Assembly: GCA_021927905.1 (NCBI GenBank)
Contig: BLLK01000045.1
Coordinates: 248,001-312,000 of the forward strand
Origin: Chaetoceros tenuissimus
Lineage: Eukaryota; Bacillariophyta; Thalassiosirophyceae; Chaetocerotales; Chaetocerotaceae
Direction: 5' to 3'
Length of the DNA: 64,000 nt
Position numbers and translations under genes: made by a program. The notes under the pieces were generated by a model. That model was not told the origin of the DNA. It did no database searches and was given only the letters and a program-made list of their open reading frames with translations. This document shows, one piece after another, positions 31,970 to 59,581 of the stretch. Within the stretch, counting starts at the first letter, position 1. Every line of letters starts with the position of its first letter.

Positions 31970-34900
31970 CTACGCTTGAATTTTTTTAATGGTCAAGTCG
32001 AAAACAGATTCAGGAATATCATCATCTTCGTCTTCAGATAATGATACCGTTTTATTGAGAATATCTTCGCCTTGTTTGGTTGGAACACTCTCAACTAAAT
32101 CGACAGTTCCATCACTCTCATCACCAGAGTCGAAGTTATTTGAAGTTGTCTGATCAAAAATGCTATCTTTTGAAACCTCTTCATTGAAGGTTTGAGCATT
32201 AGGAGTATTCTGTGCATTTGCATTTTCACTTGTCATCACCTTGATAACAGATACAGCTTGCAGTGGTGTTGACTTTGAAATCAAGTTTGAGGCAGTTGTG
32301 ACATGAATAGGAACAGATGCCCCTCCTCCTTCAAAGATTGGCAGAGAAGAAGGTTTTTTGTCACCTTCCTTACTTTCCTCTAATTTCTTCTCTGCAACGT
32401 CAATAAGAGTTTCTTCTGTGTATGGATCATTGATTTTGGAGGAACTTCCTCTGTTCCGAGTCATATATTCCATCATATGTCCAAGCATACCTCCAAGTTC
32501 CTTGAATGAGATATTGTCACCCGTGGAATTAATCTCACTACCGTCTGCCAACAAGATCTTTGCATTATTCTTCTTGATAGAGTTGGTTGCTGCCATTACC
32601 TTTTGATTAAGTCAGTAACAATGTATAAGTAAAAGAAAGTATTTTACAAGCAACGTCGAATAGACAGATTCTTTTCTTACCTCGTCCACAGTCTTATTCG
32701 CATCGAAATACTTCACATTCACTGGCTTCTTTTGTCCCAGTCTATAGCATCTATCCTCCGCTTGATCATGTACACATGGCTATTATTGAAAAGAGAAAGT
32801 CAGAATGAGAGTGAAATATAGGTAATCATGAATAACTATACAAACTCGTAATTTCATCATGGAAAGAATCTACGATGAGAATAATACAACACTTACATTG
32901 AACCAGCGATCTACAAAACCCACATGATTCGCCTCCACGATGTTGAGACCTACTCCTCCTGATTGAACAGACACAAGTAGGAACCTGCAAGTTGGAGACT
33001 GTTTGAATCTAGACATTGCCTTTGCACGTGCAGCAGCTGAAACATCTCCGTCAAATCTCTCGCAGTCGAGGTTGAAGTGTTCAATGAAGATGCCTTCGAG
33101 GATATCCCTTTACAATATAGTATGAGAAATATGTTTGTACGCAGAAAAAAATCGATCGATAAGGATATACTTACAGAGTGGCCTTGAAGAATGAATAGAT
33201 GATGACTTTGTCATCTTTGGGAATCGACAATGCCCAATCAATGACCTTTTGGATCTTAGATGATGCTTGAATACCCTTTACATTTGGACTAGCTTGGATA
33301 TGCTCACAATATGTCTTGAGAGAAGAGTCAGAACAATCTTGTTGAGATAGCTTGAGTCTCTTCTCAAAGTCGATACAGCGAGGGCAAACTGGAGTCTCAT
33401 CACTGTCTTCAAAACTTTGGAGAAAATTTTTCTCACATTTCTGATGGATAAAATGTGGGGCTTTGTCGGAAGCACTGCATATAGGCATTGCAAGTGGAAC
33501 TAGTTTCCCCAATTTCTGCATCTGAGCCTTTTGTTGTTTGTCGGTATCATTTTTATTTGTGGAATTCTGTCCCTGATTGGTGGCACCGAGAGAAGATCCT
33601 AACTCTTCATCATCTGGATCCCCATCGGTGTCCATTTCAGCGGATACATCGTTGGTGCTTTTTTGATCACCCTTTGTGGGAGGAGGGTCGGATGGCATCC
33701 TTGCACAACAGACACATACCTTTGCATTTGTCGTTTTGCATTTTGAAATCAATTGACGGCGCGTTGGAGAAAACTGCATCGTAATTTCACGGCCTCCGGG
33801 AATAATTGGATGGATAAGACTCATTCTCATTAGACTCATCTTGGCCATCATATTTTGAAAAGACTGTAACATGCTTTGGAGGGCTTCTGGAGTCAACCTT
33901 CCTGCATTGGCGTATTTCGAGAATCGCTTGAGATCTTCGAGAAACATTTTCTCATAGTTCAGATAAATACTCATCTCAGTCATGTATGGCGAAACTTCCA
34001 CCTTTGAAGAGGTCTTTGGTGGTAGAGTCTTGGAAAGGAGAGTCTTGTCTCGACGAAGCATATAGACTTCGCGCCAACTAGTGATGTTCTTCACAACTTT
34101 GTCTAAGCTAATATCACTGGTTGCTTGTTTCCACCATTCAACATTTGCAGCAGGATGAGTAGCATCAATCATTGTCATCTGTGTTGCCATGTCTTGAGAA
34201 CTGTTGTTGTATGGTGTTCCACTTAGCAAAGCGGTGCGGTTGGAATACATTCCTAGAAGAGCGCTTCCCATACCCTAGATAATTATGGATGATGAGATGA
34301 TGATATATTATACACTTGTGAATGGAGGGGAATTCAAACTTACCCAAAAAGCCTCAAGGTTGCGAAGAAAGTGGCTCTCATCAACCAGTAGCATCTCAAA
34401 CTCGGACTTGATAGAAAACTTGTTGCTTTTGAATATTCTAGTAATACATTGAGAAATGCTCTCTTCTGCATTGCGATATTTATTCTTGGCTTTGCCTTTA
34501 CTAGCCTGGTACTGATTCTCTAACATTTCAATGAATGATTTATTTACTCGCTTCGGAAAGATAGAGGACAACTTTGACTGAAACAGACTCCTCATTTCTG
34601 TCATTAACTGATATCTGGTGAGTAACAGAAATGCATCTCCCAGTGTCTGTTTATCACTTTTTCTATTGAATAGTCTGATCTTGCCTTGAGGATATCCACT
34701 CGCAATCAAAGACTCCTCCCATTGCGCTAGAACTGCATCATTCGGACCCAAAATGAGAGTTGGCTTTGGAACATATAATACTTTTGTAGCAGTATTAATA
34801 ACTTTGACAAGACGATTACGAAGAATCGCTCCACCTAAGCCCTGAATCGTTTTACCAAGACCCTATTTGTAATAAAAATATAACATGAGATTGTTCCAAA

Positions 34901-35816
34901 CAGATGTCATACATATTTGTCATGACGAAAACATATAAAAAATCCTTACCATATCATCTGCAAGCAACATCCCCTTACTCTCTACAAGCTTAACATTATT
35001 CACACAAAACTCACGACGAAACTCAACACTATCCTCCCCAAGTCCAAACACCTTCTCCTTGTCATTTTCACTTAGCTTCTCTAGCTCCTTACACACATGT
35101 ACACTATCTACTCCAGCTACAGCTAGTACTCCTTGGTATTGATGATGCAATAGAGTGTATCTAAAGTCAAAGTCCCATAGCAAACACACCAAGAACTGGT
35201 TCAAAGATGCATAGTCGTCTCCACTTTCTACAATCTTGGCTAGCTCTTGCTGCTTTTGCTCTGTGGAGAGCTGAGGTCTGACCTGTACATCTTTTCTGGT
35301 GGAAAGCTTAGGTCTCTCGTTATATGTAGTCTTTCTATTGAACTTGCGTTTTCTTCTATTGCTAGTGAACCACTCCCCTTCGTCATCAGAAAACTCATCG
35401 TCAGAGAATTCATTTTCGGACTCAGAGCAAGACATATCCTCTTTGCCATTTGTATAGAACTCGGCTTCCTTTTCAAATCCTGTATCTTTGCAGCCTTCCT
35501 TCCATTCGGCATCGCCTTCATCTTCTGAATCAGAGTCTACAAAGATAATCTTCTTTTTCAATATAGGTTTCTCCGCTTCCGCCTCACTCTCAGAAGAAGA
35601 TTCATCGGAACTGCTTTCTCCATTCTCATAATCGGAAGCGAGATACTCTTCTCTTCTTTCCCTACGACGTTCAGTAGAGGAAAGCTCAAACTCGCTTGCT
35701 CTCTCTTCTAATTTAGATTCTGGGGAAGAGAATACGGAAGCATCATCATCAGCAACTATTGTTTCTGGAGGCTGATCATCTCTTATCGTATAGCGATTTC
35801 CACTTCTAGTCGGCAT
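31970..35816 (-). CDS. SNF2-family translocase with internal RING-like domain, copy A (Rad5/Uls1-like)
   Basis: A DNA-dependent ATPase of 1141 residues in six exons: 35816-34950, 34862-34344, 34274-33175, 33107-32897, 32779-32681 and 32599-31970. The start MPTRSGNRY was chosen by match to copy B (MPTRSGNRF); the frame is open upstream. Residues 1-200 are acidic and Ser-rich. Motor lobe 1 shows LLADDMGLGKTIQGLGGAIL, PTLILGPNDAVLAQWEESL, MLLVDESHFLRN (DESH) and LLSGTPYNNSSQDM. Lobe 2 shows DKVIIYSFFKATL, CERFDGDVSATARAKAMSRF, VSVQSGGVGLNIVEANHVGF and CVHDQAEDRCYRLGQKKPV. Between them lies a split zinc module: CVCCARM, about 90 acidic residues, then C-x8-H-x2-H-x2-C and CPRC. The tail ends with an acidic SIM-like TVDLVES. 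The RING/SIM layout resembles yeast Uls1/Rad5; orthology is not proven. Confidence 0.85.
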
Positions 35817-36669
35817 CTTGGTTTTCTCTGTACAGTTATTCAGATGGATATGTTTACGATGTATGAGATAATGTGATGGAGATCTATTTCTTCTATTGTT
35901 CTTTACCGTTTTTGTACTTACATTTGAATTGAGGAATGAGATTGAGATATAACGATCTTTTCCACAGTAGAACCTTCTTTCTCTCTCTTTCTTGGCGGTC
36001 AGGTCTGAAAAATGACTGTTTTCTATCACGACTGCAAATCCCAATGCGGTGCATGTGACCATTTTAGCATAACAAGTTTATTTAAAAAATAAAGCTGCAA
36101 ACTTGAAACTTGAAAAAACCCGTCGAAGCAAGCTTGTGATATCTAGTGTAGTTGGAAACAGATACGTATCATATTATATCGTTGCATGAACTGTACTGCT
36201 CTTTTCTTCTCGATTCAATCTTGTGACGTTGGAGTCGTGAAAAGGTTTGGGTCATAATTCTTGTCTTTCAAGTGAAATAATGGTGTATATTATTCACTAC
36301 ATCATCATTCAGTAAAAGCTATGTATTTGCACAGTTTTTCTGATATTTGATCCTAGATCTATGCGATTATATGTGTTGTGATTACTGCCTGAATCAACAC
36401 TATCCAATGCTAGAGTTTAAATTAGCCATAAATTGACATCACTAACACATACATCTCTTCGCGACGACACCAATTCTCGGAGCTTGGGAGAACACAATGA
36501 AAAATTTCAATTCCCAACGGAGATGAATCTACTTTCACTTCTTGTTTATGGTACTTACATTTTCATTATTAAGTTACATGTTTGAGTAGAAAATTGGCAT
36601 ATTCATAACGCGTGCAATTCATAGCTAAGGTAGTCTCTACATAAATTTGTGTGTTGATAGTTGAAAAGA
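35817..36669. other. Divergent intergenic region, SNF2 copy A / NSS transporter
   Basis: About 850 nt. The minus frame of copy A stays open to 36062 (beginning MVTCTALGF), but this part has no counterpart in copies B and C and reads like 5' UTR. No RNA gene, repeat or mobile-element end is recognised. Confidence 0.4.
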
Positions 36670-38591
36670 ATGAGCAATGAAGAAAGAGAAAACTGGACAT
36701 CAAGACCAGCCTTCTTACTTGCAGCCATAGGAAGTGCAGTAGGTTTTGGAAATATTTGGAGATTCCCAGCTTTGGCGTACAAATATGGAGGTGGATCATT
36801 CTTTATTCCATATATATTAGCAGTGATATTCATAGGATTTCCTTTGTTACTTCTTGAAATTGCATTAGGTCAGCATCTTAAAACAGGTGATGTAGGCGTA
36901 TTTGGTTGTATTGATACTCGACTTAGAGGAGTTGGATTAAGTGCAGTGTTGTGTGGGTTTCTTGTTACTGGATACTATGTCCCATTATTGAGCTGGGTGT
37001 TAAGATCTTTGTGTGAAAGTTTTGGTGAGATGAAAAATAAATGGAGTGGCGCAGTGACCGGATCAGCTGCATCCGATTACTTCTTTAACGATATTGTTGG
37101 TATGGAAACTCTTGGTGCGAACTTGACACCAACTCGTTTGGTATTTACAAATGTCTTCTATCTGCTTCTGTCATGGATCACAATTGGTGGATGTGTCTTT
37201 TTTGGAATAAAGTGGACTGGAAGAATAGCATACTTTACGTAAGTTTGAGAGTGAAAAAAATACTATGATTGCGATGTTTATCTCATAGATATTGTTTCAC
37301 TTGCAGAATGGGTCTCCCTATAGTGTTGTTGTTTCTTTTCCTTTTTCGAGCAATCACCTTACCAAATGCTGGCGAAGGAATCCAAGCATACATTGGACAC
37401 TGGGACACTACAGTTTTAACTGAGCACAAAGACGTTTTTTCTACAGCTGTTTCACAAGTTTTCTTTTCCTTGGGCACTACATTTGGAATAATGACAGCAT
37501 TTGGGTCTCATTGTCCAAATAATTCTCCGGCAACCGAAAATGCTGCAGTTATAGCAGTTTCTAACAGCCTCTTCAGTTTCATAGCAGGCTTCGGTGTGTT
37601 TGGTAGCTTGGGATATTTGAAGTATATTGAAAATGCAGATAGTTTTGATGAAGTCGTTCAAAGTGGACCTTCACTAATGTTTGGTGCTTATCCAGCTGTT
37701 TTATCAACTCTTCAGGGTGGTATACATTGGATCAGATTATTATATTTTAATTTGTTCCTTCTTGGTATTGATAGCGCTTTTGCACTAACAGAGGCACTTT
37801 TGACCGTTGTCAAAGATTCAGCATTTGGCAAATCAAAAAGCGAAAAAGGGATTGTGATTGTGGCTGCAAGTGTCGGCTGTCTAATGGGACTTCTCTACGT
37901 CACTGATGCTGGTCTCATATTTCTTGACGTGGTAGATTTCTATGTCAACTTCATTATGCTCCTGATTGGATTCTCGAAAGCATTTGCAGCTGGATGGATG
38001 TACGATTTGAACTCTCAGATAGAAAAGTATGGAATAGTAGCGAAGATGTACATAACGACAACATTTGGGGCTCTATTCCTTGCTTCATTGTGTTGGTTTG
38101 GACCTAAAGGTGACACAACAATTCTTGGCTTCATCGTGTTGATCTTAAGCTATGGATGTGGTATGTTCTTGGTTATTTCGAAACTTAAAGAAAATGATCT
38201 AGATGTGAAAGAAAGTTTACATGACCTTGGTACTTCCAATGTGCTGAAACTAACAAGCCATCTTGAAAGCTCGTGCGGGAAAATTCCGAGGGCATGGCCC
38301 TACTTGATCAAGCATGTCATTCCACAAGTTCTATTGGTGCTTTTCGTCAACCTAGTATTTAGTAGGAATGAATATGGGATCGAATTCTCAAATTACGAGG
38401 GATATCCAGCTCCTTTTCAAGCAATCGGGATCTTGGTTGTTATATTCATTTCTTCGGTATTTGTCCTTGGCTTTGTGAAACCCCAGGCATACAATGTTCT
38501 CTCTTCTTCTGATGAAAAGCCTTTTGACTCTTCATTGAAGACCCAAGATGATGGACAAACAAACTATGTGGAGATGTCTTCAGTTGCGTAA
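36670..38591 (+). CDS. Sodium:neurotransmitter/amino-acid symporter (NSS, SLC6-like)
   Basis: A sodium-coupled amino-acid transporter with the LeuT fold. Exons 36670-37238 and 37307-38591 (68-nt intron GTAAGT...TTGCAG) give 617 residues; the join reads YFTMGLPIVLLFLFLFRA. TM1 carries the Na/substrate-binding signature LAAIGSAVGFGNIWRFPALA at about residues 17-36, as in bacterial and protist NSS members. YVPLLSWVLRSL fits TM3. FFSLGTTFGIMTAFGSH fits TM6, with its unwound binding segment, and LLGIDSAFALTEALLTV fits TM8. No large glycosylated loop of the animal type is present, so it is closer to microbial NSS carriers. The ATG at 36670 gives a short cytoplasmic N-terminus with the expected N-E-R-E-N-W-x-S-R lead. 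Substrate cannot be told from the sequence. Confidence 0.9.
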
Positions 38592-38701
38592 AGTAAGTTT
38601 GATGTTGAAAATTCGAAAACTACGTAACCGAGATCACGTTTAGGATCATTAACAACTCAATAATTTAGTTTAAATAAACTGCTAATGCGGCAAGTTTCTC
38701 A

Positions 38702-38726
38702 CTCGGTTCGCCTAAGCTAAACCGAG
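38702..38726. terminator. Short inverted repeat between convergent genes
   Basis: CTCGGTT (38702-38708) and AACCGAG (38720-38726) form a 7-bp stem with an 11-nt loop, in the 169-nt gap between the ends of two convergent genes. It may fold in either 3' UTR. A role in termination is only a guess. Confidence 0.2.
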
Positions 38727-38760
38727 CCCGAAAACTCGCACATGTAATATATCAGTTGTT

Positions 38761-39777
38761 TTAATCATACTCAGAAAAGAATGAATCAACTATTTCGCCA
38801 TACACAGTGGGTTGCTCTAATAAGCCATGATGGGAACATCCTTCCAATACCTTTATTCTGACGAATTTGTGATTGAAAGCTTGTTTCCAACCCTGAATAC
38901 AAACATCAGAGACAAAGTCATTCTCTCCTCTCATCACTAGGGCCGATGGCATCCGAGACGCAGAATCACTTGGTTTCTCTGCTTTCCAGCCTTTGATACT
39001 ATCAGTCCCTCTCCATATGCCTGGTTTCCCTGCATGGTCATATGCATCAATAAGAGGCTGTGGTTTGTCTTCTGTCTGGCATTGATGCCTTTTCCGAAAT
39101 CTTTCCATGATTGTCGATTCATCATTGTCTTCTTCCATCAGTTTCGATATTAGATCTCCAGCTACGCCTTCAACTTGATCTACATCACTTGGACCACTGG
39201 AAAGAATCACAGAAAGACACTCTGATTCATTCCTAGATCCATCGGATTTCTCTGCCAATCTTTTGAGATATTCAAAAGCAAGGATGGAACCAAAAGATTG
39301 ACCGTATAAATGAAATCGTCTCAAACCACACTTTTTAATCAATAACTCTAAGTCATCCACAGAATCTTTTAGGCTATATGCATCTTTACACTCTGGTCCA
39401 GGACTTCTTCCACACCCAAGTTGATCGTAGAATACAATTGATCTATAAGGTATGACATCTTTTAATGGGTGTAGGTAATCTGATGGAACACCTGGACCCC
39501 CGTGCAAAACTAAAATCGGCGCTTTCTGCACGGAAGACAAATTCATTCTATTATGAATATGGTATTTGATTTCATGTTTAGTTGTTGTTACGTCAGTGGA
39601 ACTTTCGTCTTTTTGATAAGTTCTTGATACTTCAATGGATCCATCAAAAGAAAGCCCTGATGATGCATTGAGTTTTCTGAGTCCATCACTCTTTGGTGCG
39701 CTTTGGAGGAATGCATCACAGTTTCCAACTAGTAAAATAAAATGGATTAATACAGAAAATGGCTCCAGTATCCTCAT
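38761..39777 (-). CDS. Proline iminopeptidase-like alpha/beta hydrolase (peptidase S33), signal-bearing
   Basis: An S33-family hydrolase of about 338 residues, likely removing N-terminal proline or similar residues. The fold markers are APILVLHGGPGVPSDYLHPL (oxyanion HGGPG), IVFYDQLGCGRSPGP, and the nucleophile elbow HLYGQSFGSILAFEYL. The later ALVMRGENDFVSD probably carries the acid, and LEGCSHHGLLEQP the catalytic His. HGGPG plus DQLGCGRS is the proline iminopeptidase/tricorn-factor signature. The N-terminus (MRILEPFSVLIHFILLVGNCDAF) is a signal peptide with a plausible plastid motif DAFLQ; an ATG five codons upstream (39792) is an alternative start. The lid region is shorter than in bacterial enzymes, so the substrate may differ. 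It lies in tandem with the ribosomal P2 gene on the same strand. Confidence 0.82.
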   Translation of the reverse strand: MRILEPFSVLIHFILLVGNCDAFLQSAPKSDGLRKLNASSGLSFDGSIEVSRTYQKDESSTDVTTTKHEIKYHIHNRMNLSSVQKAPILVLHGGPGVPSDYLHPLKDVIPYRSIVFYDQLGCGRSPGPECKDAYSLKDSVDDLELLIKKCGLRRFHLYGQSFGSILAFEYLKRLAEKSDGSRNESECLSVILSSGPSDVDQVEGVAGDLISKLMEEDNDESTIMERFRKRHQCQTEDKPQPLIDAYDHAGKPGIWRGTDSIKGWKAEKPSDSASRMPSALVMRGENDFVSDVCIQGWKQAFNHKFVRIKVLEGCSHHGLLEQPTVYGEIVDSFFSEYD

Positions 39778-39792
39778 ATTGCTTGTTGACAA

Positions 39793-40136
39793 TAAGACTT
39801 CGAATGTTGTATAACGCGTTGGAAGGAAAAAAGTGAGAGTATTTGGAGTCCGTCAATTTCTGTGGAAGCAATACCAAACAAATCATTGATTCACGAGAAA
39901 ATTATACAGATCGGAACACGTATCTAGTCGTTTCTCAATAGCAGTGCAGTTTTCAAATAAGAGCTTCAATTTGTAATATACATGTAATTCTTGGTTATAA
40001 AAATAAAAACACACACATGTGACATGACAAGGTCTGTGCTATGAATAGGAAAATCATTGAAGCCCCAAAATTTTTTGTGATCTCAATTCTGGACTATCTC
40101 TTTTTTCTAGAGATTTTCTTTATAGTTACAAGGAAA
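39793..40136. other. Intergenic region between S33 peptidase and P2
   Basis: 344 nt of AT-rich DNA serving as promoter of the peptidase and 3' region of the P2 gene. An opposite-strand open frame over the P2 gene is an artefact of its alanine/glutamate-rich coding sequence. Nothing else seen. Confidence 0.4.
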
Positions 40137-40475
40137 TTAGTAGTCTCCACCGTCGTCTCCTCCGAACATATCAATAGCATCTCCTGGTCCTGCCTCTTCC
40201 TCAACTTCTTCCTCTTCCTCCTCAGCAGCTGCGTCTCCGCCAGCTGCTGCTCCAGCTGCAGCAACTCCTCCTCCGCCACCGAACTTAGCGAGCATTTCCT
40301 TTCCAGCAGCAAGAGTCTCCTCAAGATCCTTTCCTTCCATCTCTGCAAGGAACTTTCCAAGAGAATCAGCATCAGCCTCAACTCCTACAGAAGCAAGAGC
40401 AGCAGTTACATCATCAGCAGTTGGAGCCTCGTTTCCTCCAAGAACGAGCATAAGGTAAGCAGCAATGTGTTTCAT
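40137..40475 (-). CDS. RPLP2: 60S acidic ribosomal protein P2
   Basis: P2 forms, with P1 and P0, the lateral stalk of the large cytosolic ribosomal subunit that recruits elongation factors. The 112-residue frame has the P2 dimerisation domain: MKHIAAYLMLVLGGNEAPTA, then VTAALASVGVEADADSLGKF and LEETLAAGKEMLAKF. A Gly/Ala hinge and an acidic Glu run follow. The ending AIDMFGGDDGGDY departs from the usual DDDMGFGLFD/SLFD tail seen in animals and fungi. That tail is the binding site for elongation factors and several ribosome-inactivating proteins, so the change is notable. Codon use is strongly biased (GCT/GCA, GAG), as expected for a highly expressed gene. No intron. It shares a divergent promoter with ELOF1. 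Confidence 0.92.
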   Translation of the reverse strand: MKHIAAYLMLVLGGNEAPTADDVTAALASVGVEADADSLGKFLAEMEGKDLEETLAAGKEMLAKFGGGGGVAAAGAAAGGDAAAEEEEEEVEEEAGPGDAIDMFGGDDGGDY

Positions 40476-40882
40476 TTTGATATGTTTGAGTAAAAGTTAG
40501 AGTGAAAGCTTACAAGCAGTTTAAGCGTAGGGCGGCTAGCAAGTGAACCAAGGATAAAGGTACAAAAAGACACCCAATTGTTTTTCTGGCTTTTGTGGTT
40601 TAGTAGAGGGGTAAGTAAAAGTAAAATACCCACCCGATATGGTTCTTCAAAAACCTATTTTGTACAGAGATACAATAGGTTTTGAGGCTACTTTCAATCC
40701 TTGTAGGTGCCAAGCCGAAAGCCGAAAGCTGCTTTGATTGCAAATTGCAAAGCAAACCTTATCTAGTATTTGCATGGAGTGCACATAGTGAAATAATAAA
40801 ATTTAAGCGTGACGCTGTATATCCATAACACGAAAAGAATCAAGGAAAGAGTTCTGAAGCTATAATAAATATATATTAAAAA
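40476..40882. other. Divergent promoter region, P2 / ELOF1
   Basis: 407 nt between a ribosomal and an elongation-factor gene. It includes a short direct repeat (CCGAAAG at about 40718-40731) and an AT-rich stretch just upstream of ELOF1. No gene seen. Confidence 0.4.
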
Positions 40883-41413
40883 ATGGGACGCAGAGCGAAA
40901 AAGGCACCGGTAAGTTCTTGCACTTCACGTCCTGAACCTGAGATAAAAACATTTCCAACCAATGGGAATGGATAAAGTTTCTTATGAAATTATGTATAAA
41001 CTTGATCTTACACCTTTGTTTTCATTGAATTAAATAAACAGGTACAAACAAAGAAAAGAGTGACACTAGCAAAGAGGTTCAAATGTCCATTTTGCGCGAA
41101 TGAAGATGTAGTAGAATGCACAATGAAACTAAGGGAGGGAACTGGCTCTCTCGAATGTCGTATATGTGATGCTTCATTTCAGATGCCAATACACCATTTA
41201 CACGAACCAATTGATGTATTTAGTGAATGGCTAGATGCATGTGAAGCGGCAGAAAAAGGAAACAGCGGAAACAATAACGCAGCAGATAATGACTTTTTGG
41301 GTCAAGGGTTGAACAATAATAATAGCAGACCGTCTTCGGCCAGAGCATCAGAAGGACAGAAAAAGGCTGCATTTGCATCATTAGGATTGGACGATTCAGA
41401 TGATTCAGATTAG
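40883..41413 (+). CDS. ELOF1: Transcription elongation factor 1 homologue (ELOF1/Elf1)
   Basis: A zinc-ribbon factor that travels with RNA polymerase II and takes part in elongation and transcription-coupled repair. A 27-nt first exon (40883-40909, MGRRAKKAP) joins exon 2 (41042-41413) across a 132-nt intron (GTAAGT...AACAG), giving 132 residues. The basic MGRRxKK start is the ELOF1 hallmark. Zinc cysteines are C24/C27 (FKCPFC) and C48/C51 (LECRIC). Also conserved are FQMPIHHLHEPIDVFSEWLDACEAA, corresponding to the family's EPVDVYSDWIDACE. A 50-residue Asn/Ser-rich tail ending GLDDSDDSD extends beyond the 83-residue animal protein, as in many fungi and plants. The gene would be missed without the tiny first exon. 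Confidence 0.93.
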
Positions 41414-41964
41414 ACTATGATATTTATCCAATACTGCTATTACTTGGAAAACTTCTGATTTCATTCCATCTTTAATCAAAACCTCTCCCGATCCGATAAA
41501 AATTTACAAAATCATTATATATGGAAGATGCATTTACAAGCAGAATGAAATTGAAATTAAATTATAGTTTTGCATAAGTCTAAGAACTGGGTATATTCTT
41601 TTGGTCTAATTTGTCTTTGTAGAACAGAGATCACCTAGGGCAAATAGGTTTTCTCTAATAAAATCCAAGATGCAAACAGGAGCACTAACCAACCAGGAGT
41701 CCCATTTTCTATTTGAAAACTCATTATTGATTAGATGTCGCTGAAGTATGCAGTTGTGACAATTATAACTATATAAAGCTTGCTGTGCTAGGTAGGGGCA
41801 TGGTTCTTAGCATACGAGACCACAGCTCAACCCGTTCCTTTGAATTAATTAAAATATACTTTAGATTTACGAAAGAACAATAACGTCCTTAAGTTGTGTA
41901 TTATATAGTCCGAGAAGAATTAAAAGTGCACCCATATGATAATCACTCGTCGGAGAGCATTCCT
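41414..41964. other. Intergenic region between convergent ELOF1 and Mpv17-like genes
   Basis: 551 nt, unusually long for a convergent pair in this window, where others are 19-216 nt. I looked for a tRNA or small RNA and found no cloverleaf with T-arm and anticodon. A non-coding RNA cannot be excluded. Confidence 0.35.
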
Positions 41965-44914: not shown

Positions 44915-44994
44915 GCCCCAATTTTTGACTTACGAATATGATTTTTATCATGTAATGTACGTAGACATGCACAGTTTTTAGGTTAGCCGCTTAG

Positions 44995-45627: not shown

Positions 45628-45645
45628 TTCGATAAAATTTATCAA

Positions 45646-48778: not shown

Positions 48779-50044
48779 ATGATGATTCCAAAAAGTGTAG
48801 CTGTTGTTACTTTGCTCCTTGCTGCTCCATCTGCGGCTTTTATGCCATCCAGCAGACCATCTCATGCTGCAGCAAGAAAATCTTCTTTGAACATGAGTGC
48901 TGCACTTATTGTACAGAATAAGGGCGGTGGACATGGAGAGCTTGGTACGTAAATATGTTTACATATTTCTCTTCTTCTAAAGGAAGTCATGTCTGATTTA
49001 ATTTTCTTTTATAGGATTTCAACTTGCAAAGACTCTTCAGTCCAACGACAAAATTACTTCCATCACAATTCTACAAGACGAAGCATGCAACGATGAGAAG
49101 GAACCATTCAAGTCATATGGAACTGATATTCCTGATGTAAAAATTGTAAAAGCAAATTTGGCAGATGAATCCATGACTGCAGAATCTCTCAAAGAAATTC
49201 TTGGAGATGCTACTTTTGAATATGTATGGGATAATGCATCCAAAAAGCCTGAGGGAGCAGGCAAGGCTGTATGTGATTGCGCAAAATCTTGGAATACAAA
49301 GGTATTCACCTATGTATCTTCTGCTGGTATGTATCAACCAACTGGTGAATTCCCAATGCCAGAGACTACACCAGTAAAGGAGTCAGCAGGACAAAACTTG
49401 TTTGATAATTATGCTGTTGAGATTGGTTTGCCACTTGTTTCTTTCCGTCCACAATACATTTATGGACCAAAATCGAACAAATATGATTACATTGATTGGT
49501 ATTTTGATCGTTTGTGTAGGGGGCTTCCACTTCCAATCCCTGGAGATGGAACTCAAAAAGTTTCCTTGACTAATTCCGAAGATGTTGCATCACTTCTTGC
49601 TGCTGTTTTGGAAAACGAGGAGGCGGCTATTGAACAAAGATTTTTCAACTGTGGAACTGATAAGCTTTATTCTTACGATGAATACATGTGTGCTGAAGTG
49701 CAGGAATTGCAAAGGATGATGTTGCTATTGAACATTATGATGCAGACATGTTTGGAAAGGCGAAGTTCCCATTTCGTTTGACTGACTTTTACGTTTCTCC
49801 TGACACTGCCAAGGAGAAGCTCGGATGGACTGGACCATCCCATGATTTGGCAGATGATTTGAAGGAATACTATGAGGGATTCAAGGCTCGTGGAATGTTG
49901 GAGAAGGACATTTCTATTGAGAAAGATTATGAAATTGTTTTTGCTTCAAAGTCTAATTTTGAGATTGGATCTGTATATGATAAGTACTTGGGATTGAACA
50001 TTGATACAAGCAACGTCAAGCCTTTGGATGTTAACATTAACTAA
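48779..50044 (+). pseudogene. CSP41-like plastid NAD-binding/endoribonuclease-type protein, with a frameshift
   Basis: A relative of plant CSP41b, an SDR-like protein that binds chloroplast RNA. Exon 1 (48779-48944) encodes a signal peptide with a plastid motif (MMIPKSVAVVTLLLAAPSAAF, then MPSSRP) and the nucleotide-binding entry VQNKGGGHGELG. A 70-nt intron leads to exon 2. CSP41-like blocks follow: FEYVWDNASKKP, VFTYVSSAGMYQPTGE, VSFRPQYIYGPKSNKY, IDWYFDRLCRGLPLPIPGDG, and FNCGTDKLYSYDEYM. The reading then shifts between about 49697 and 49700. The first frame runs to a stop at 49781, while the family sequence resumes at once in another frame as AGIAKDDVAIEHYDADMFGK and continues to FRLTDFYVSPDTAKEKLGW and 50044. 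One missing base explains it. Since both halves are otherwise intact this may be a sequencing or assembly error rather than a dead gene. Confidence 0.72.
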
Positions 50045-50494
50045 ACATGTTCATATCTTTCAATGACCACCGATTTTACTCATCTCGCTGGGAACGTTTC
50101 CATGTTATTTTCACAAATGAAAAAAGGTGGGGATCGCTTACTTTCTTCTGATTCCTTTTTTTATTACTTTTATTGACCTTGTTTTTTATATACCGTATGG
50201 ATATAAGTTTGTTAAAGATTCTAGTGAATTGGTGAATTCAAATTCTCAAAATCCAACAAAAATCTAAGCTAAATTAGTTCTCGCGCCGATGGCAACAAGA
50301 GTAAAGACCCGCCAAATTAAAATGGAAGCCAAAGGATGGACACCGAACACCGATCCAGATACTATTCGATCTCTCTCATTTTTCAATCATCAAAGATATA
50401 GTAACCTAGAATAGCAAGTCTAGTCTACTGTATTCATCAACAAGCATACCATACATCCGTATTCATCTGCATTGCTATCGCATAGACCATCAAG
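50045..50494. other. Intergenic region upstream of SNF2 copy B
   Basis: 450 nt with the 3' end of the CSP41-like gene and the promoter of copy B. It has a GC-rich cluster near 50280-50316 (TCTCGCGCCGATGG and CCCGCCAAA, the latter listed separately) and poly-T tracts. No gene. Confidence 0.4.
50308..50316 (-). promoter_or_regulatory. E2F-like element
   Basis: Read on the minus strand it is TTTGGCGGG, one base from the TTTSSCGC consensus and a known functional variant in other eukaryotes. It lies about 180 nt upstream of the copy B start, a distance like that at the ATRX-like gene. Function is inferred. Confidence 0.25.
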
Positions 50495-53400
50495 ATGCCA
50501 ACTAGGAGTGGAAACCGCTTCAGAGCAAGAGATCATACATCACCAGCCACGACTGCTTCTGATGATCAAAAAGTACCTACCTCAACTGATGCCTCCTCCG
50601 TTTCATCTCCCCCTGAAGCTAGATTAGAAGAGAGAGCAAGCGAGTTTGAGCTTTCCTCTACTGAACGTCGTAGGGAAAGAAGAGAAGAGTATCTCTCTTC
50701 GGATCGCGGCGGTTCCGATGAATCCTCTTCTGAAAGTGAGGCGGAAGCGGAGATACCGACTAGGAAGACGATTCTCATGCGTAGCCAAACCATGGGCAAC
50801 GAGGAAGAAGACGATGCCGAATGGAAGGAAGGTTGCAAAGATACTGGATTTGAAAAGGAAGCCGACCTCTACACAAATGGCAAGGAAGATAGGTCCGACT
50901 CCGAGCTCGGAGATGATGATGACTACCTAGATGATGAAGAGTCGGAAGAGGAAGAGTCGGAAGACGAGGAGTGGTACTCTAGTACTAGAAGAAAACGCAA
51001 GTTCAATAGAAAGACGACATATAACGAGAGACCTAAGCTTTCCACCAGAAAAGATGTACAGGTCAGACCTCAGCTCACCACAGAGCAAAAGCAACAAGAG
51101 CTAGCCAAGATTGTAGAAAGCGGAGACGACTATGCATCTTTGAACCAGTTCTTGGTGTGTTTGCTATGGGACTTTGACTTTAGATACACTCTATTGCATC
51201 ATCAATACCAAGGAGTACTAGCTGTAGCTGGAGTAGATAGTGCACATGTGTGTAAGGAGCTAGAGAAGCTAAGTGAAAGTGACAAGGAGAAGGTGTTTGG
51301 ACTTGAGGAGGATAGTGTTGAGTTTCGTCGTGAGTTTTGTGTGAATAATATGAAGCTTGTAGAGAGTAAGGGGATGTTGCTTGCAGATGATATGGTAAGG
51401 AATTTTTATATGTTTTCGTCATGACAAATATGAATGACATCTGGTTGGAACAATCTCATGTTATATTTTTATTATAAATAGGGTCTTGGTAAAACGATTC
51501 AGGGTTTAGGCGGAGCGATTCTTCGTAACCATCTTGTCAATGTCATCATGTCTGCAAACAATCGTCTTCATGTTCCAAAGCCAACTCTCATTTTGGGTCC
51601 GAATGATGCAGTTCTAGCGCAGTGGGAGGAGTCTTTGATTGCGAGTGGATATCCTCAAGGCAAGATCAGACTATTCAATAGAAAAAGTGGTAAACAGACA
51701 CAAGGAGATACATTTCTGTTACTCACAAGATATCAGTTGATGACAGAAATGAGGAGTTTGTTTCAGTCAAAGTTGTCCTCTATCTTTCCGAAGCGGGTGG
51801 ATCAATTATTCATTAAAATGTTAGAGAATCAGTATCAGGCTAGTAAAGGCAAAGCCAAGAATCAATATCGTGAGAAGGAGGAAACAGTTTCTCAATGTAT
51901 TACAAGAATATTCAAAAACAATGAGTTTTCTATCAAGTCCGAGTTTGAGATGCTACTGGTTGATGAGAGCCACTTCCTTCGCAACCTTGAGGCTTTTTGG
52001 GTAAGTTTGAAGTTAAGACAACTCACAAATTATATTATAATATATCATTATCTCATTATGCGTATTATATTCAGGGTATGGGAAGCGCTCTTCTCGGAAT
52101 GTATTCCAACCGCACCGCTTTACTGAGTGGAACACCATACAACAACAGTTCTCAAGACATGGCGACACAAATGACAATGATTGATGCTAATCATCCAGCT
52201 GCAGATGTTGAATGGTGGAAACAAGCGACCAGTGATATTAGCTTAGACAAAGTTGTGAAGAACATCACTAGTTGGCGCGAAGTCTATATGCTTCGTCGAG
52301 ACAAGACTCTCCTTTCTAAGACTCTACCACCAAAGACCTCTTCAAAGGTTGAAGTTTCGCCATATATGACTGAGATGAGTATTTATCTGAACTATGAGAA
52401 AATGTTTCTCGAAGATCTCAAACGATTCTCGAAATACGCTAATGCAGGAAGGTTGACTCCAGAAGCCCTCCAAAGCATGTTACAGTCTTTTCAAAATATG
52501 ATGGCCAAGATGAGTCTAATGAGAATGAGTCTTATCCATCCAATCATTCCCGGAGGCCGTGAAATTACGATGCAGTTTTCTCCAACGCGCCGTCAGTTGA
52601 TTTCAAAATGCAAAACGGCAAACGCAAAGGTATGTGTCTGTTGTGCAAGGATGCCATCCGACCCTCCTCCTACTAAGGGTGATCAAAAAAGCACCAACGA
52701 TGTATCCGCTGAAATGGATACCGATGGCAATCCAGATGATGTAGAGACAGGACCTTCTCTCGGTGCCACCAATCAGGGACAGAACTCCACAAATGAAAAT
52801 GATGCCGACAAACAACAAAAAGTTCAGATGCAGAAATTGGGGAAACTAGTTCCACTTGCAATGCCTATATGCAGTGCTTCCGACAAAGCCCCACATTTTA
52901 TCCATCAGAAATGTAAGAAGAAGTTTCTCCAAAGTTTTGAAGACAGTGATGAGACTCCAGTTTGCCCTCGCTGTATCGACTTTGAGAAGAGACTCAAGCT
53001 ATCTCAACAAGATTGTTCTGACTCTTCTCTCAAGACATATTGCGAGCATATCCAAGCTAGTCCAAATGTGAAGGGTATTCAAGCATCATCAAAGATCCAA
53101 CAAGTCATTGATTGGGCAATGTCAATTCCAAAAGATGACAAAGTCATCATCTATTCATTCTTCAAGGCCACTCTGTAAGTATACCCTCATTCATTGAATT
53201 TTTCTACTAAAATACGCATCACTCATAATATATTGTAAAGTGATATTCTCGAAGGTATCTTCGTTGAGCACTTCGACCTCGAATGTGAGAGATTTGACGG
53301 AGATGTTTCAGCTACCGCACGTGCAAAGGCAATGTCTAGATTCAAAGAGTCTCCAACTTGCAGGTTCCTACTTGTGTCTGTTCAATCAGGAGGAGTAGGT

Positions 53401-54781
53401 CTCAACATTGTGGAGGCGAATCATGTGGGTTTTGTAGATCGCTGGTTCAATGTAAGTGTTGTATTATTTGTCTCTGCATGTAGATTCTTTCCATGATGTA
53501 GTGATGAGTTTGAATATAGCTATTTATGGTAATCCATGTTTCATTTGCTCACTTTCTCTTTTTGATAATAGCCATGTGTACATGATCAAGCAGAGGATAG
53601 ATGCTATAGATTGGGTCAAAAGAAGCCAGTGAATGTGAAGTATTTCGATGCGAATAAGACTGTAGACGAGGTAAGAAAAGAATCTGTCTACTTGACGTAG
53701 TTTGCATACTTTTTCTCATACATATATACTGCGAAAGGTCATGGCAGCAACCAACTCTATCAAGAAGAATAATGCAAAGATCTTGTTAGCAGACGGTAGT
53801 GAGATTAACTCCACGGGTGACAATATCTCATTCAAGGAACTTGGAGGTATGCTTGGACATATGATGGAATATATGACTCGGAACAGAGGTAGTTCCACCA
53901 AAATTGATGATCCATACACAGAAGAAACTCTTATTGACGTTGCAGAGAGGAGAGTACAGAGTACTAAGGAAGGTGACAAGAAACCTTCTTCTCTGCCAAT
54001 CTTTGAAGGAGGAGGGGCATCTGTTCAGATACCACAACTGGAGAATTCTTCCTCAAATACCTCATTACCAATACAAGCTTTTACACAGGATGGTCTGCAA
54101 CCGGTGCCACCAACTCAGCTCATTGTCGAAAATATGATGTCGCAAGCAGCTCCTATGCAAGCTTTTGCATCGAATATGTTGTCACATGCAGCTCCTATGC
54201 AAGCTTTTTCATCAAATACGTTTGCACAGGTAGCTCCTATGCAAGCAGCTCCTATGCAAGCTTTTTCAGCAAATATGTTTGCACAGGCAGCTCCTATGCA
54301 CGCTTTTACCCAGAATAGTTTGCAACCAGTAGTACCAAGTCAGTTCATTGCTGAAAATATGATGATGCAAGCAGCTCCTATGCAAGCAGCTCCTATGCAA
54401 GCAGCTCCTATGCAAGCAGCTCCTATGCAAGGTTTTTCATCGAATATGTTGTCACAGACTGGACCAGATCATTCATTATCTAGCTCAAATACGATTACTG
54501 GAAAGGTTTTAGCCGAAAATACCAAATCTCCTGTTCTTTTGAGCAATGAGGTGGTGTTGAAGGAAGACAACGTTGATTCGAAGAAAGAAGCTAAGACGAC
54601 TCCTGAAACTATTAGCATCAATTCCGACGATGAGAGTGAAGGAACTGTCGATTTAGTTGAGAGTGCTCCAACGAAATCCGATGCACACATTCTGAATAAA
54701 ACAGTTTCATTGTCAGACGATGAAGGTGACGATATCCCTGAATCTGTTTTCAACTTGAGTGTGAAGAAGATTCAAGCATAG
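50495..54781 (+). CDS. SNF2-family translocase with internal RING-like domain, copy B
   Basis: The largest of the three paralogues: 1290 residues, six exons at 50495-51394, 51482-52000, 52075-53174, 53241-53451, 53572-53670 and 53738-54781. Exon count and phases equal copy A, exons 2-5 have identical lengths, and the first intron is nearly identical in sequence. Motor motifs are DDMGLGKT (K304), DESH (461-464), LSGTPYNN and DQAEDRCYRLGQ. The split zinc module spans about residues 659-770 (CVCCARM ... CSASDKAPHFIHQKC ... CPRC). The tail differs most: a Gln/Met/Ala-rich region of AAPMQ repeats (listed separately) is inserted before the acidic SIM-like SEGTVDLVES and the final DDIPESVFNLSVKKIQA. 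Its N-terminal ERASEFELSSTERRRERREE block is shared with copy A. Probable nuclear DNA translocase/ubiquitin ligase; target unknown. Confidence 0.86.
54073..54470 (+). repeat. Higher-order coding repeat in copy B (LQPV...ENMM...AAPMQ units)
   Basis: Two long related units, starting near 54073 and 54302, each encode a FTQ-x-x-LQPV-x-P-x-Q segment, then ENMM, then runs of AAPMQ with short FSSNMLS spacers. In total nine AAPMQ-like pentapeptides are seen. Neither copy A nor copy C has this region, so it expanded after the duplication. Confidence 0.85.
54371..54430 (+). repeat. Four perfect tandem 15-bp repeats (AAPMQ)
   Basis: The unit GCAGCTCCTATGCAA is repeated four times without a mismatch (54371-54385, 54386-54400, 54401-54415, 54416-54430). 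It keeps the reading frame and encodes Ala-Ala-Pro-Met-Gln. Perfect identity suggests recent slippage and likely length variation between strains. Confidence 0.95.
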
Positions 54782-55495
54782 GCGAAAGAGAGACTCATTC
54801 TTTCCATCACGGATGAGATCGAAAGAGTGAAGTAGATATTTGGTGGTTATCATTAGCAGTATTTTTGGGGAAGACATCATGGTCGAATTAGGATGCAAAT
54901 TGACCATCGAAGAAAGTTGATTGTTACGAATAGCTGTGTATATTATGCTAATAGGCAGGGATAAGTAGGATAAAGCTAAGCTAAATGATAAACGCTGCAA
55001 CTTTGCACTGTGCATCTAGTATTTCCACGCAGAAGTCTATGCAGGTGATAAAGCGAACGATCACAGTTAGAGTTTACGTAAAAGGGTCCTAAAAGCAAAG
55101 GCGCACTATATTCTACAAAGTCAATTCCTAAAGCGAAGTTACTGATCATATTGAAAAAGAAGTTTATATAATTTTTCATTAGGATACATCTATTTTGTCT
55201 ACTTTTACAGCTGTTAGTACCTATTAAATAGTAGCTGCAAACACATTTTCTGCTTAGAATAAAATTACTTTTTTGTCAATATCAAGAAAAGGCCTTTTTT
55301 GACGCGCCACTTTTTGCACAGCTCCAATTTTTTCATTTTTTGAGGATCTCTCTACCCGCCGTATCCTACGTACCGGTACTTTACAAGAGTAAACACAGGA
55401 ATTGAGAGAAGGTAATATTAATTATGCTATACCCCTCTCCAAGAGATATCATTGATTCAATTATACCAAGTAGAAAACATTAGAAAGGACGCAAT
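54782..55495. other. Intergenic region between SNF2 copies B and C
   Basis: 714 nt between tandem paralogues. It is AT-rich, with a GACGCGCCAC core near 55301 and CCCGCCGTATCC near 55354, possibly promoter elements of copy C. No similarity to the region upstream of copy B is obvious by eye, so the duplicated unit appears limited to the gene body. No transposon ends recognised. Confidence 0.4.
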
Positions 55496-58400
55496 ATGTC
55501 AAGTAGTAGTAATGTACCAGTCTCGGAAAAGAGCTCGACAAGTTCAAGTAGTGATACCATGACTAAAAGTACCATTCATGACACATCTCCTACATTGGTT
55601 TCAAGTTTTCCTTCCAGTGCTCTTGAGTTTCAAATCTCATCTGTTGAAAAGCGCAAGGAAAGAAGGGAAGATGCACCTGCTGGTGACACCTGCTACTTGT
55701 CTTGTTCTGAGAGTGAAGCGGAAGAGGAGAAACCTATATTAAAAAAGAAGATCATCTTTGTAGACTCTGATTCAGAAGATGAAGGCGATGCCGAATGGAA
55801 GGAAGGCTGCAAAGATACAGGATTTGAAAAGGACGCCGACCTCTACACAAATGGCAAGGAAGATGTATCTTGCTCGGAGTCCGAAAATGAGTTCTCTGAC
55901 GATGAGTTTTCTGATGACGAAGGGGAGTGGTACTCTAGTACTAGAAGAAAACGCAAGTTCAATAGAAAGACGACATATAACGAGAGACCTAAGATTTCCA
56001 CCAGAAAAGATGTACAGGTCAGACCTCTGCTCTCCTCAGAGCAAAAGCAACAAGAGCTAGCCAAGATTGTAGAAAGCGGAGACGACTATGCATCTTTGAA
56101 CCAGTTCTTGGTGTGTTTGCTATGGGACTTTGACTTTAGATACACTCTATTGCATCATCAATACCAAGGAGTACTAGCTGTAGCTGGAGTAGATAGTGTA
56201 CATGTGTGTAAGGAGCTAGAGAAGCTAAGTGAAAGTGACAAGGAGAAGGTGTTTGGACTTGGGGAGGATAGTGTTGAGTTTCGTCGTGAGTTTTGTGTGA
56301 ATAATATGAAGCTTGTAGAGAGTAAGGGGATGTTGCTAGCAGATGATATGGTAAGGAATTTTTATATCATTGTATCGATGAGCCATAATATTTTTGTCTA
56401 GTTTCTGAATTTTTGAATTACACAGGGTCTTGGTAAAACGATTCAGGGTTTAGGCGGAGCGATTCTTCGTAATCGTCTTGTCAACGTAATTAAAAGTGCT
56501 ACAAAAGTAATATATGTTCCAAAGCCAACTCTCATTTTGGGTCCGAATGATGCAGTTCTAGCGCAGTGGGAGGAGTCTTTGATTGCGAGTGGATATCCTC
56601 AAGGCAAGATCAGACTCTTCAATAGAAAGTGTATGACTCAAACATCTGGAGATGCATTTCTGTTACTCACAAGATATCAGTTGATGACAGAAATGAGGAG
56701 TTTGTTTCAGTCAAAGTTGTCCTCTATCTTTCCGAAGCGGGTGAATAAATTATTCGTTGATAGATTGGAGAATCAGTACCAGGCTAGTAAAGGGAAAGCC
56801 AAGAATCAATATCGTGAAAAGAACGAGACAATTTCTCAATGTATTACGAGACTCTTCAGAAATGCTTTTAGAATCAAGTGGAAAACTGAGTTTGAGATGC
56901 TTCTGGTTGATGAGAGCCACTTCCTTCGCAACCTTGAGGCTTTTTGGGTAAGTTTGAAGTGCAGCCCACTCACATATATATATTTTTATATTATATCAAT
57001 TATATCATTATCTCATCATTATATCATCATCCTGTTATCTAGGGTATGGGAAGCGCTCTTCTAGGAATGTATTCTGACCGCACCGCTTTGCTGAGTGGAA
57101 CTCCATACAACAACAGTTCTCAAGACATGGCGACACAGATGACATTGATTGATGCTAAGCATCCAGCTGCAAGTGTTAGATGGTAAGTTTTTTCTTCAGA
57201 AAGGAATGTTAATGGCATCTCAAAAATATATACTAATAGACCTTTTTATAGGTGGGACAATGCAACAAAAGTCAAAGCAAAAGAAGACGTCATAAAAAAT
57301 ATCACTGGTTGGCGCGAAGTCTATATGCTTCGTAGAGATAAGAGCCTACTTGCAAAGACTTTGCCACCAAAATCATCTACAAAGTTCGAAGTTGCGCCAT
57401 TCCTCTCTGAAATGAGTATTTACTTGAACTATGAGAAAATGTTTCTTGAAGATCTTCAAAGTACGTAGATTATCTCCATTCATTTCTCTTTTTCTTCAGT
57501 GCTTCTAATTTTTCAATTTGCGACTTAGACTTTGCCAAATATGCTGATGCAAGAAGTTTAAGTCCAGAAGCCATTCAGTCTATGCTACGAGCTTTCCAAA
57601 ATATGATGGCCAAGATGAGTTTAATGAGAATGAGTCTAATCCATCCAATCATTCCAGGAGGCCGTGAAGTCACGATGCAGTTTTCTCCAACTCGACGTGG
57701 TTTGTTAGGATCATGTAAAGCTGCTAATGCAAAGGTCTGCGTTCATTGTGCGAGGATGCCGTCCGATCCGCTTCCTGTGAAAGGGGAAAAGAAAAAGGAA
57801 GAACATAATTCTGACGACATGGATACCGACGGGAATCCAGATGATGAAGAGCTCGGTTCAAGTTTAGGAATTGCTCAAACAGTAGAAACACTAGTACAGC
57901 AAGAGAAAAAGAAGAAAAAGAACTTGGGCGACCTGGTACCTCTTGACAGGACCATATGTGATGCTCCAGAGAAATGTGGACATTTCATTCATACGAAATG
58001 CCTCAAAGAGTTGAAGGAGAGTTTTCTCGAAAGTGGAGAGACTCCGAACTGTCCAAAATGTACAGACTTGCGAAAAAGACTTTCCTTTATCCAGAATGAA
58101 TCTGAACCTTCACTCAAAATGTACTGCGAACACGTAGAAGCCATCCGCGGTGTTAAAGGCATTCAAGTATCCTCCAAAATCCAGAGAGTTATCGATTGGG
58201 CATTATCTGTACCGAAAGACGAAAAGGTTATCATTTACTCATTCTTCAAGGCCACTCTGTAAGTTTGTGACTTTTTTTACTACCATATACCAGATATTCT
58301 TGGGATTCTCAACTTTATTCTCATCTCCTCAATTTAGAGATATTCTCGAAGGTATCTTCGTTGAACACTTCAACCTCGAATGTGAGAGATTTGACGGAGA

Positions 58401-59581
58401 TGTTTCAGCTACCGCACGTGCAAAGGCAATGTCTAGATTCAAAGAGTCTCCAACTTGCAGGTTCCTACTTGTGTCTGTTCAATCAGGAGGAGTAGGTCTC
58501 AACATTGTGGAGGCGAATCATGTGGGTTTTGTGGATCGCTGGTTCAATGTAAGTGTTGTATTATTTGTCTCTGTGCATGTAGATTCTTTCTCCATCATGA
58601 AGTAGTGATGAGTTTGAATATAGCTATGTATGATTACTTTATTTCAATCTCACTTTCTCTTTTTGATAATAGCCATGTGTACATGATCAAGCGGAGGATA
58701 GATGCTATAGATTGGGACAAAAGAAGGCAGTGCATGTGAAGTATTTCGATGCGAATAAGACTGTAGACGAGGTGCGTGAAAAATCATCTTTGCTTGCTTG
58801 GTTTTGTATGACATCATTTTATTTATATTCTTTTTGAACACAAAAGGTCATGGCAGCGATCAACTCCATCAAGAAGAATAATGCGAAGATCTTGTTAGCA
58901 GACGGTAGTGAGATCAATGCAACTGGTGACAATATCTCATTCAAGGAACTTGGAGGTATGCTTGGACAAATGATGCTATTCGCAATTGGTCATAGGGGAT
59001 CCTTTAATCAGTTGGAAATGCCATACACAGAAGAACTTCTGGTTGCTGTTGCCGAAGCAAGAGCATTAGCAAAGTCTGGGAAAACTCCAAAGAATGATAA
59101 AGAAAAGGAAACTCTGAACACCCTTCTTCAAATGACGAATAAAAATTTAACCAATCATTCTTCTTCAATTGCTGAAGCTTTGTTCAACTACGCCTCCAAC
59201 CCAAATGCAGACCCAACACACGTCCAACAGGCTCATTCTCATGATATTGATGCGAATGTCATGGATATTTCTTCTGAACCTGTCACAACAACGTTGGATA
59301 ATATGGGAAGCATTCATATGAGTAATGATGATTCAGACGACGATAGCGAAGGTACTGTTGATCTACTTGACGGATTTGACCAAGACGTTGAAGACACTGC
59401 AGGTTCCACTAATATTGCTGGTACATTACATCCATGCGTTCCCCTATCAACAATAAAGTCATCTGAACTTTTATCCGACGATGAAGAAGACGATATTCCC
59501 GAATCGGTTTATAATTTGAAGCCTAAAATTGAAAGTCTGAAGACTGGATCCAAGGGCGATTCTTCTTCACAAGGAAAGTGA
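55496..59581 (+). CDS. SNF2-family translocase with internal RING-like domain, copy C
   Basis: The third paralogue, 1166 residues in eight exons: 55496-56350, 56426-56947, 57043-57182, 57252-57460, 57529-58258, 58338-58548, 58673-58771 and 58847-59581. Two introns (57183-57251 and 57461-57528) split what is one exon in copies A and B; both joins restore family sequence (VRWWDNATK and EDLQNFAKYAD). The motor is intact (DDMGLGKT, LLVDESHFLRN, LSGTPYNNSSQDM, DQAEDRCYRLGQKKAV). The zinc module is present but diverged: CVHCARM, a shorter Lys-rich insert, then CDAPEKCGHFIHTKC and CPKC, with an extra Cys. The N-terminus lacks the MPTRSG start and begins MSSSSNVPVSEKSS. The tail keeps SEGTVDLLDG and DDIPESVYNL. 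Exons 1 (end), 2 and 6 are nearly identical to copy B while exons 4-5 and 8 are not. Confidence 0.86.

Follow-up and report, generated by a model that had tools for sequence, protein, structure and literature searches.

We have analyzed a stretch of 64,000 nucleotides from the genome of the diatom Chaetoceros tenuissimus (contig BLLK01000045.1, positions 248,001 to 312,000; the window in what follows), part of a 3.79-Mb contig in a genome of 41.0 Mb. It contains three genes, named here A, B and C, coding for proteins with an SNF2 motor, a split zinc module between the two motor lobes and motifs resembling SUMO-interaction motifs (SIMs) near their ends. To judge by their sequences, they are members of a distinct SNF2 family of diatoms and a pelagophyte. 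We propose, with moderate confidence, that the products of A, B and C represent an ochrophyte SNF2 family of DNA translocases that would be guided by SUMO to chromatin, working like Uls1 and Rrp2 of yeasts, with an uncertain ubiquitin-ligase activity.

Three genes of one SNF2 family

The genes were delimited as follows:

31970..35816, minus strand: copy A, six exons (34950-35816, 34344-34862, 33175-34274, 32897-33107, 32681-32779, 31970-32599), 1141 residues
50495..54781, plus strand: copy B, six exons (50495-51394, 51482-52000, 52075-53174, 53241-53451, 53572-53670, 53738-54781), 1290 residues
55496..59581, plus strand: copy C, eight exons (55496-56350, 56426-56947, 57043-57182, 57252-57460, 57529-58258, 58338-58548, 58673-58771, 58847-59581), 1166 residues

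All spliced models have GT-AG introns and are free of internal stops, and C has two introns beyond those of A and B. Protein identity is 86% between A and B, 73% between A and C and 71% between B and C. The initial annotation had described three SNF2-RING-SIM paralogues produced by a local expansion, and this description stands: the features are where it placed them, the genes are intact and, judging by DNA and protein searches of the genome, the expansion does not reach beyond this block. No fourth copy was found by these searches, the next protein match after A, B and C having an E value of 2.4e-16.

The Pfam scan of the copies covered A and C, and both passed the cut-offs for the two motor domains, SNF2-rel_dom (1.9e-20 in A, 7.8e-20 in C) and Helicase_C (9.7e-17 and 4.8e-17). 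All three copies have the strings of the helicase motifs and can be placed among the SNF2 ATPases. The Walker B motif reads DESH in each of them:

34371..34382, minus strand: DESH of A
51962..51973, plus strand: DESH of B
56909..56920, plus strand: DESH of C

The annotation had singled out this DESH, in place of DEAH, and it was right as to its presence. As a distinguishing trait we have dropped it, because its third residue varies across the family: the 22 readable rows of 24 (C and 21 relatives) have DEAH in 16 cases, DECH in three, DEGH in one and DESH in two.

A protein search with residues 180-930 of C, of which the best 120 of 3135 matches were listed, gave 23 relatives at E values up to 1.2e-73, followed by a gap to 3.3e-28. 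Among the named sources, Skeletonema menzelii, Epithemia clementina, Seminavis robusta, Thalassiosira exigua and a metagenome-assembled genome of Bacillariaceae have one listed protein each, and the pelagophyte Aureococcus anophagefferens has three, two of them near copies. In trees of the motor a branch with support of 100/100 separates the family from the other rows. Its position among the other SNF2 proteins is less stable. With all 53 rows it stands apart from the RING-bearing SNF2 group, beside the long row of another C. tenuissimus gene (L035); when the three longest rows are removed it joins the RING-bearing group (97/94). Holding it with other eukaryotic or with prokaryotic rows gave approximately unbiased test values (p-AU) of 0.18 and 0.309, neither of them rejected. 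Kinship of the family with the RING-bearing SNF2 proteins is therefore no more than possible.

A split zinc module and SIM-like motifs

The element between the motor lobes is present in all three copies:

33375..33716, minus strand: split RING-like zinc module of A (CVCC ... PIC...HFIHQKC ... CPRC), with the Cys of C-x-H lost and an upstream Cys kept
52633..52974, plus strand: split RING-like zinc module of B, of the same type as A
57738..58061, plus strand: split RING-like zinc module of C (CVHC ... C...CGHFIHTKC ... CPKC), with the full RING-H2 ligand set

In the alignment of 24 rows (C and 23 relatives) the ligand columns follow one another as C646, C649, the insert, C719, H727, H/C730, C733, C750 and C753. 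The first two are kept in 22 of the 24 rows, His or Cys at 730 in 21 and the remaining five in 23. Ligands are missing from P0019, P0022 and P0023, whose gene models seem to be incomplete, and P0016 and P0019 have an Arg at position 730. In P0013 and P0018 the His at 730 is exchanged for Cys, a swap that would be the expected behaviour of a zinc ligand. Cys 725, the textbook Cys of C-x-H, is found in 14 rows, C included; C719 is the more constant of the two. The eight-ligand RING-H2 pattern is thus complete in C, and in A and B if C719 stands in for the missing Cys. The insert that splits the module measures 56-126 residues (35-68 in the three exceptional rows) and carries a net negative charge in 23 of the 24 rows. 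It has 69 residues in C and 75 in A and B, with a net acidic charge of only 5, so that of the long acidic insert previously described the length and the splitting are confirmed and the acidity is weak.

Comparison of profiles with hhalign, using 23 family modules and 17 RING-bearing SNF2 proteins picked by a RING pattern, gave a P value of 1e-4 and a probability of 57%. The second half alone reached 59% with a score of 26.6, and 30 column shuffles stayed at or below 0.86% and 13.2; the match extends over 31-32 columns, that is, only the half of the module from C-x-H to C-x2-C. AlphaFold gave a mean predicted local distance difference test score (pLDDT) of 90-95 for residues 131-180 of the C piece. 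In our reading, the inter-lobe element is a module of the RING type whose first loop has been enlarged. The RING claimed by the annotation is accordingly backed by the ligand set and by the hhalign match of the second half, while the established RING models remain below cut-off.

The ends of the proteins are acidic, as had been noted, with a net acidic charge of 16 to 23 at the N-terminus and 14 to 21 in the tail of A, B and C. The following motifs were found, the SIM pattern being a consensus:

35517..35549, minus strand: N-terminal SIM-like IIFVDSDSEDE of A
55751..55783, plus strand: N-terminal SIM-like IIFVDSDSEDE of C
32090..32110, minus strand: C-terminal SIM-like GTVDLVE of A, in the acidic tail
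54641..54661, plus strand: C-terminal SIM-like GTVDLVE of B
59351..59371, plus strand: C-terminal GTVDLLD of C, which the SIM pattern did not pick up

The TVDLVE and TVDLLD motifs of the annotation are therefore present, in A and B and in C respectively, but the second of them fails the pattern. The N-terminal IIFVDSDSEDE, which had been overlooked in A and C, is absent from the N-terminus of B. Over the tails of the family we counted 23 SIM-like matches with overlaps included, in 13 of 26 proteins, against 8.3 in shuffled tails (none of 500 shuffles was as high). When overlapping matches were merged and the tails delimited a little differently, there were 14 against 5.9, in 10 of 26 proteins. 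The control of 16 Rad5/HLTF-type proteins gave 4 against 4.5 expected. EIIELSSDEE and VIDLSLDDD, from relatives, are clear examples, as is the IIFVDSDSEDE of A and C. These counts show a moderate enrichment of SIM-like motifs in the tails of the family. The tails otherwise align poorly, apart from a second shared motif, DDIPESV[FY][DN]L, located after an acidic run (31994-32023, 54728-54757 and 59489-59518).

Some relatives carry additional domains. A C-terminal UBX domain passes the Pfam cut-off (21) in P0003 (residues 1273-1334, 38.1 bits) and P0005 (residues 1173-1243, 35.6 bits), P0008 has a second, C-terminal RING over cut-off (residues 872-914) and two Aureococcus rows show UBA-like stretches below cut-off. 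Such additions, of which the Pfam scan found none in A or C, tie the family to ubiquitin and perhaps to Cdc48. As for SUMO itself, the genome gave 27 matches to the Rad60-SLD profile, some of them locally clustered, including these loci:

G000:C27:2334185-2337268: Rad60-SLD match
G000:C44:122314-123554: Rad60-SLD match
G000:C32:1351767-1352216: Rad60-SLD match
G000:C14:2068580-2070484: Rad60-SLD match

The genome thus has SUMO-like genes, of which two adjoin each other and have a near-terminal GG. Other matches are ubiquitin or multi-domain proteins, and L055 fits ubiquitin better. The matches also include L060, which codes for a bigger protein that has two stretches resembling SUMO and lacks a terminal GG.

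Several observations weigh against a SUMO-guided translocase with a working RING. In A and B the Cys of C-x-H is missing, at a position that is loose in the whole family. The Pfam RING models stay below cut-off for the inter-lobe module of C and give no match in A; any one of them matches at most 7 of the 24 members even at E values up to 1, the best being zf-RING_2 at 0.00088, and the matches that pass the cut-off in P0008 belong to its second, C-terminal RING. Foldseek and VIA-align, run with the zinc module alone, gave no usable match. Active RINGs usually have C-x-I-C with a hydrophobic Ile that contacts the ubiquitin-conjugating enzyme (E2), and a basic linchpin residue after the last Cys. 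Here the E2-contact place is occupied by Cys in A and B and by His in C, 12 of the 24 rows having Leu or Phe, and none of the 24 rows has a basic residue at the linchpin place. The enrichment of SIM-like motifs is modest: 81 other SNF2 proteins also exceed expectation (64 against 47.5), and a match is lacking in 13 or 16 of the 26 members, depending on the counting. Finally, UBX domains usually have an FPR loop, which in P0003 and P0005 reads FPP, and no UBX was found in A and C. Of all these points the changed E2-contact residue, the inconstant Cys 725, the RING models below cut-off and the modest SIM counts weigh most. The ubiquitin-ligase activity of the putative RING is consequently uncertain in the family and doubtful in A, B and C, because of the Cys or His at the E2-contact place.

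Gene conversion and the age of the copies

The three copies had been described as recent. This fits A and B, which are close, but C is old, and its similarity to the others is very uneven along the gene:

55949..57182, plus strand: homogenised block 1 of C, residues 152-506, lobe 1 (from synonymous divergence, fourfold sites and pattern heterogeneity)
57252..58258, plus strand: diverged island of C, exons 4-5, about residues 507-819 (brace, zinc module and start of lobe 2), with a C-only intron as left border
58338..58771, plus strand: homogenised block 2 of C, exons 6-7, lobe 2, holding a 160-bp tract identical to B from 53276

Between B and C the synonymous divergence (dS) is 0 over the 120 alignment columns 180-299 (residues 152 to about 271 of C), and in the zinc region it is about 2 or saturated. 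Fourfold degenerate sites gave the same picture: for B and C the differing sites number 13 of 164 in the homogenised blocks and 61 of 129 outside them (Fisher p 7e-15), for A and C 22 and 58 (p 3e-9) and for A and B 19 and 24 (p 0.10), p values that are a guide only because the blocks were chosen after seeing the dS profile. For A and C the contrast is already found between the zinc module (15 of 22) and the lobe-2 block (4 of 42). Heterogeneity of the site patterns along the alignment was 331, compared with at most 85 in 2000 shuffles. Besides, two tracts, of 160 and 162 bp, are identical between B and C, an N-terminal stretch of 668 bp is 96% alike in A and C, and in the middle part and lobe 2 it is A and B that resemble each other closely. 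Introns 2 and 4, located in or beside the homogenised blocks, are 84-93% alike between C and either A or B and 78-86% between A and B; in intron 5 the values are 85% for A and B and 72-74% for the other pairs.

In our reading, the motor exons were homogenised by ectopic gene conversion among the three copies, with A lying in the opposite orientation to B and C. This would explain why the motor of C looks recent. When the tree is built from the region without conversion, the three copies still group in one clade (100/97) instead of falling into different ancient clades, and the nearest outsider is the metagenomic P0022 (100/99, with 46% of the columns filled). The single clade fits a triplication within this lineage, with C splitting off long before the separation of A and B. 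The average dN/dS of 0.31-0.35 in all pairs is compatible with purifying selection. Divergence has affected the N-terminus of B and, in C, both the tail and the zinc module, which differ from A and B at the majority of fourfold sites. In the copepod GOT1 paralogues, according to the account in PMC3728101, islands of divergence amid conversion can mark regions selected for new functions. Since the motor was homogenised while these parts diverged, the three copies probably share one motor job and have different targets or partners.

Tandem repeats were listed in the coding tail of B and none in the tails of A and C:

54130..54431, plus strand: tandem repeats of 42, 57 and 15 bp in B, with QAAPMQAF units

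The neighbours recognised by Pfam are ordinary cellular genes (a symporter, a hydrolase, Mpv17, RNase PH, an FAD oxidoreductase and a metallophosphatase). At 29226-31454 there are DRC7 domains, typical of the flagellar dynein regulatory complex, which would be compatible with a centric diatom having motile sperm. Two more SNF2 genes are located nearby. One, in the window (19213-22618, minus strand), codes for a CW-type zinc finger behind the second lobe; in the tree it is found among other SNF2 genes, away from A, B and C. The other is L035 (G000:C32:234000-240500), about 8-12 kb to the left of the window, which we read as ZRANB3-like from a weak Ran-type zinc-ribbon match below cut-off, and in which a SIM-like stretch, EVIELLDDSD, was spotted by eye. 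It adjoins the family in the motor trees, with both branches very long (1.98 and 1.88) and a warning of the program about a false join. With this join doubtful and the CW gene grouping elsewhere, we rejected a wider regional cluster of SNF2 genes of the same kind.

Known systems and alternative explanations

Uls1 combines an SNF2 motor, a RING and SIMs in one polypeptide (PMC6428284), and its homologue Rrp2 is a SUMO-targeted translocase that displaces SUMO-modified Top2 (PMC8161396). The diatom proteins resemble them in having the motor, a RING-type module and SIM-like motifs in a single chain. They differ in that the RING of the copies is split by a loop of 69-75 residues, in that SIM-like motifs are found at both ends, whereas those of Uls1/Rrp2 lie in the N-terminal part, and in that some orthologues add a UBX or a second RING. 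The likeness is thus one of architecture, without implying kinship: the anatomy fits the Uls1/Rrp2 way of working, and membership in Uls1 does not follow from it. Following this model, the SIM-like motifs would dock on SUMO-coated chromatin proteins and the ATPase would pull or push these proteins off the DNA. The RING-like module would then help to pass the displaced proteins on to ubiquitin and Cdc48. Such a course of events has been reported for yeast Uls1, and its displacement step also for fission-yeast Rrp2. Another diatom protein with SNF2 and RING parts is the DNA methyltransferase DNMT5 (PMC9998398), whose structure 7r78 was Foldseek rank 22 for the model of P0007. Unlike it, A and C gave no methyltransferase match in the Pfam scan, and DNMT5 was not among the best 60 of 86 profile matches in the PDB. 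In the open-access literature we found one work joining diatoms, SNF2 and a RING finger, none joining diatoms, SUMO, ubiquitin ligase and SNF2 and, among the matches listed, no UBX domain fused to an SNF2 translocase.

A possible explanation, although a less likely one in our judgement, is that these proteins are chromatin remodellers or translocases in which the zinc module is structural or contacts histones, and in which the acidic insert, N-terminus and tail bind histones and not SUMO. The Cys or His at the E2-contact place, the missing linchpin residue and the RING models below cut-off all agree with a module that is not a ligase, and the acidic charge of both ends suits histone binding. 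Against such a role are a ligand set kept in nearly all rows, the UBX or RING additions of some relatives and SIM-like motifs above the level of the shuffles. It is improbable that the family is a diverged Rad5/HLTF-type fork remodeller and PCNA ligase. There is a resemblance: the RING inserted between the lobes, the trait of the Rad5/16-like group, is represented here by the RING-type ligand set and by the alignment with Rad5, whose Kluyveromyces lactis structure (6l8n) scores higher with the family profile than any other eukaryotic PDB entry (171 bits, the next eukaryotic one having 142) and is aligned through the second half of the RING. The trees without the three longest rows point in the same direction. 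However, A and C show no HIRAN match up to an E value of 1, the E2-contact residue is replaced, and a separate gene of the same genome (L043, with SNF2, RING and Helicase_C) groups with the Rad5-type proteins, while with all rows the family leaves the RING group and other placements were not rejected.

As to the history of the locus, we consider it very unlikely that a recent triplication took place without gene conversion, the uneven divergence reflecting different selection on each domain. The motor is generally the most conserved part of SNF2 proteins and A and B resemble each other closely along much of their length, as such a history would have it, but the fourfold sites are equally uneven, introns 2 and 4 are alike among all pairs and intron 5 is not, and B and C have the long identical tracts. 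Least probable of all we regard a defence locus against viral or mobile DNA, akin to the control of foreign DNA suggested at first, which found no support in any analysis. A local expansion with diverged end modules is what such a locus might look like; against it are the ordinary neighbours, the average dN/dS of about 0.3 (an average that would not reveal positive selection at single sites) and a pattern scan of viral contigs that gave only four distant relatives, with 28-35% identity.

Going beyond the SUMO-guided translocase that we favour, we put forward as a tentative and still doubtful idea that the family is an ochrophyte class of its own, made up of chromatin extractors that are guided by SUMO and combine in one polypeptide the motor, a split RING, SIMs and, in some lineages, a built-in UBX or second RING. 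In C. tenuissimus it would exist as three copies that keep one engine through repeated conversion, with the ligase and reader modules as diverged islands for different targets. If this were true, the removal of chromatin proteins guided by SUMO and driven by SNF2 motors, described for yeasts, would have a second form in diatoms and their kin, with a presumed Cdc48-docking domain fused in for some members. The three mosaic copies provide a natural swap experiment, with nearly the same motor, two types of zinc module and different ends. Gene conversion is also a caution, as the identity of the motor makes an old paralogue look recent.

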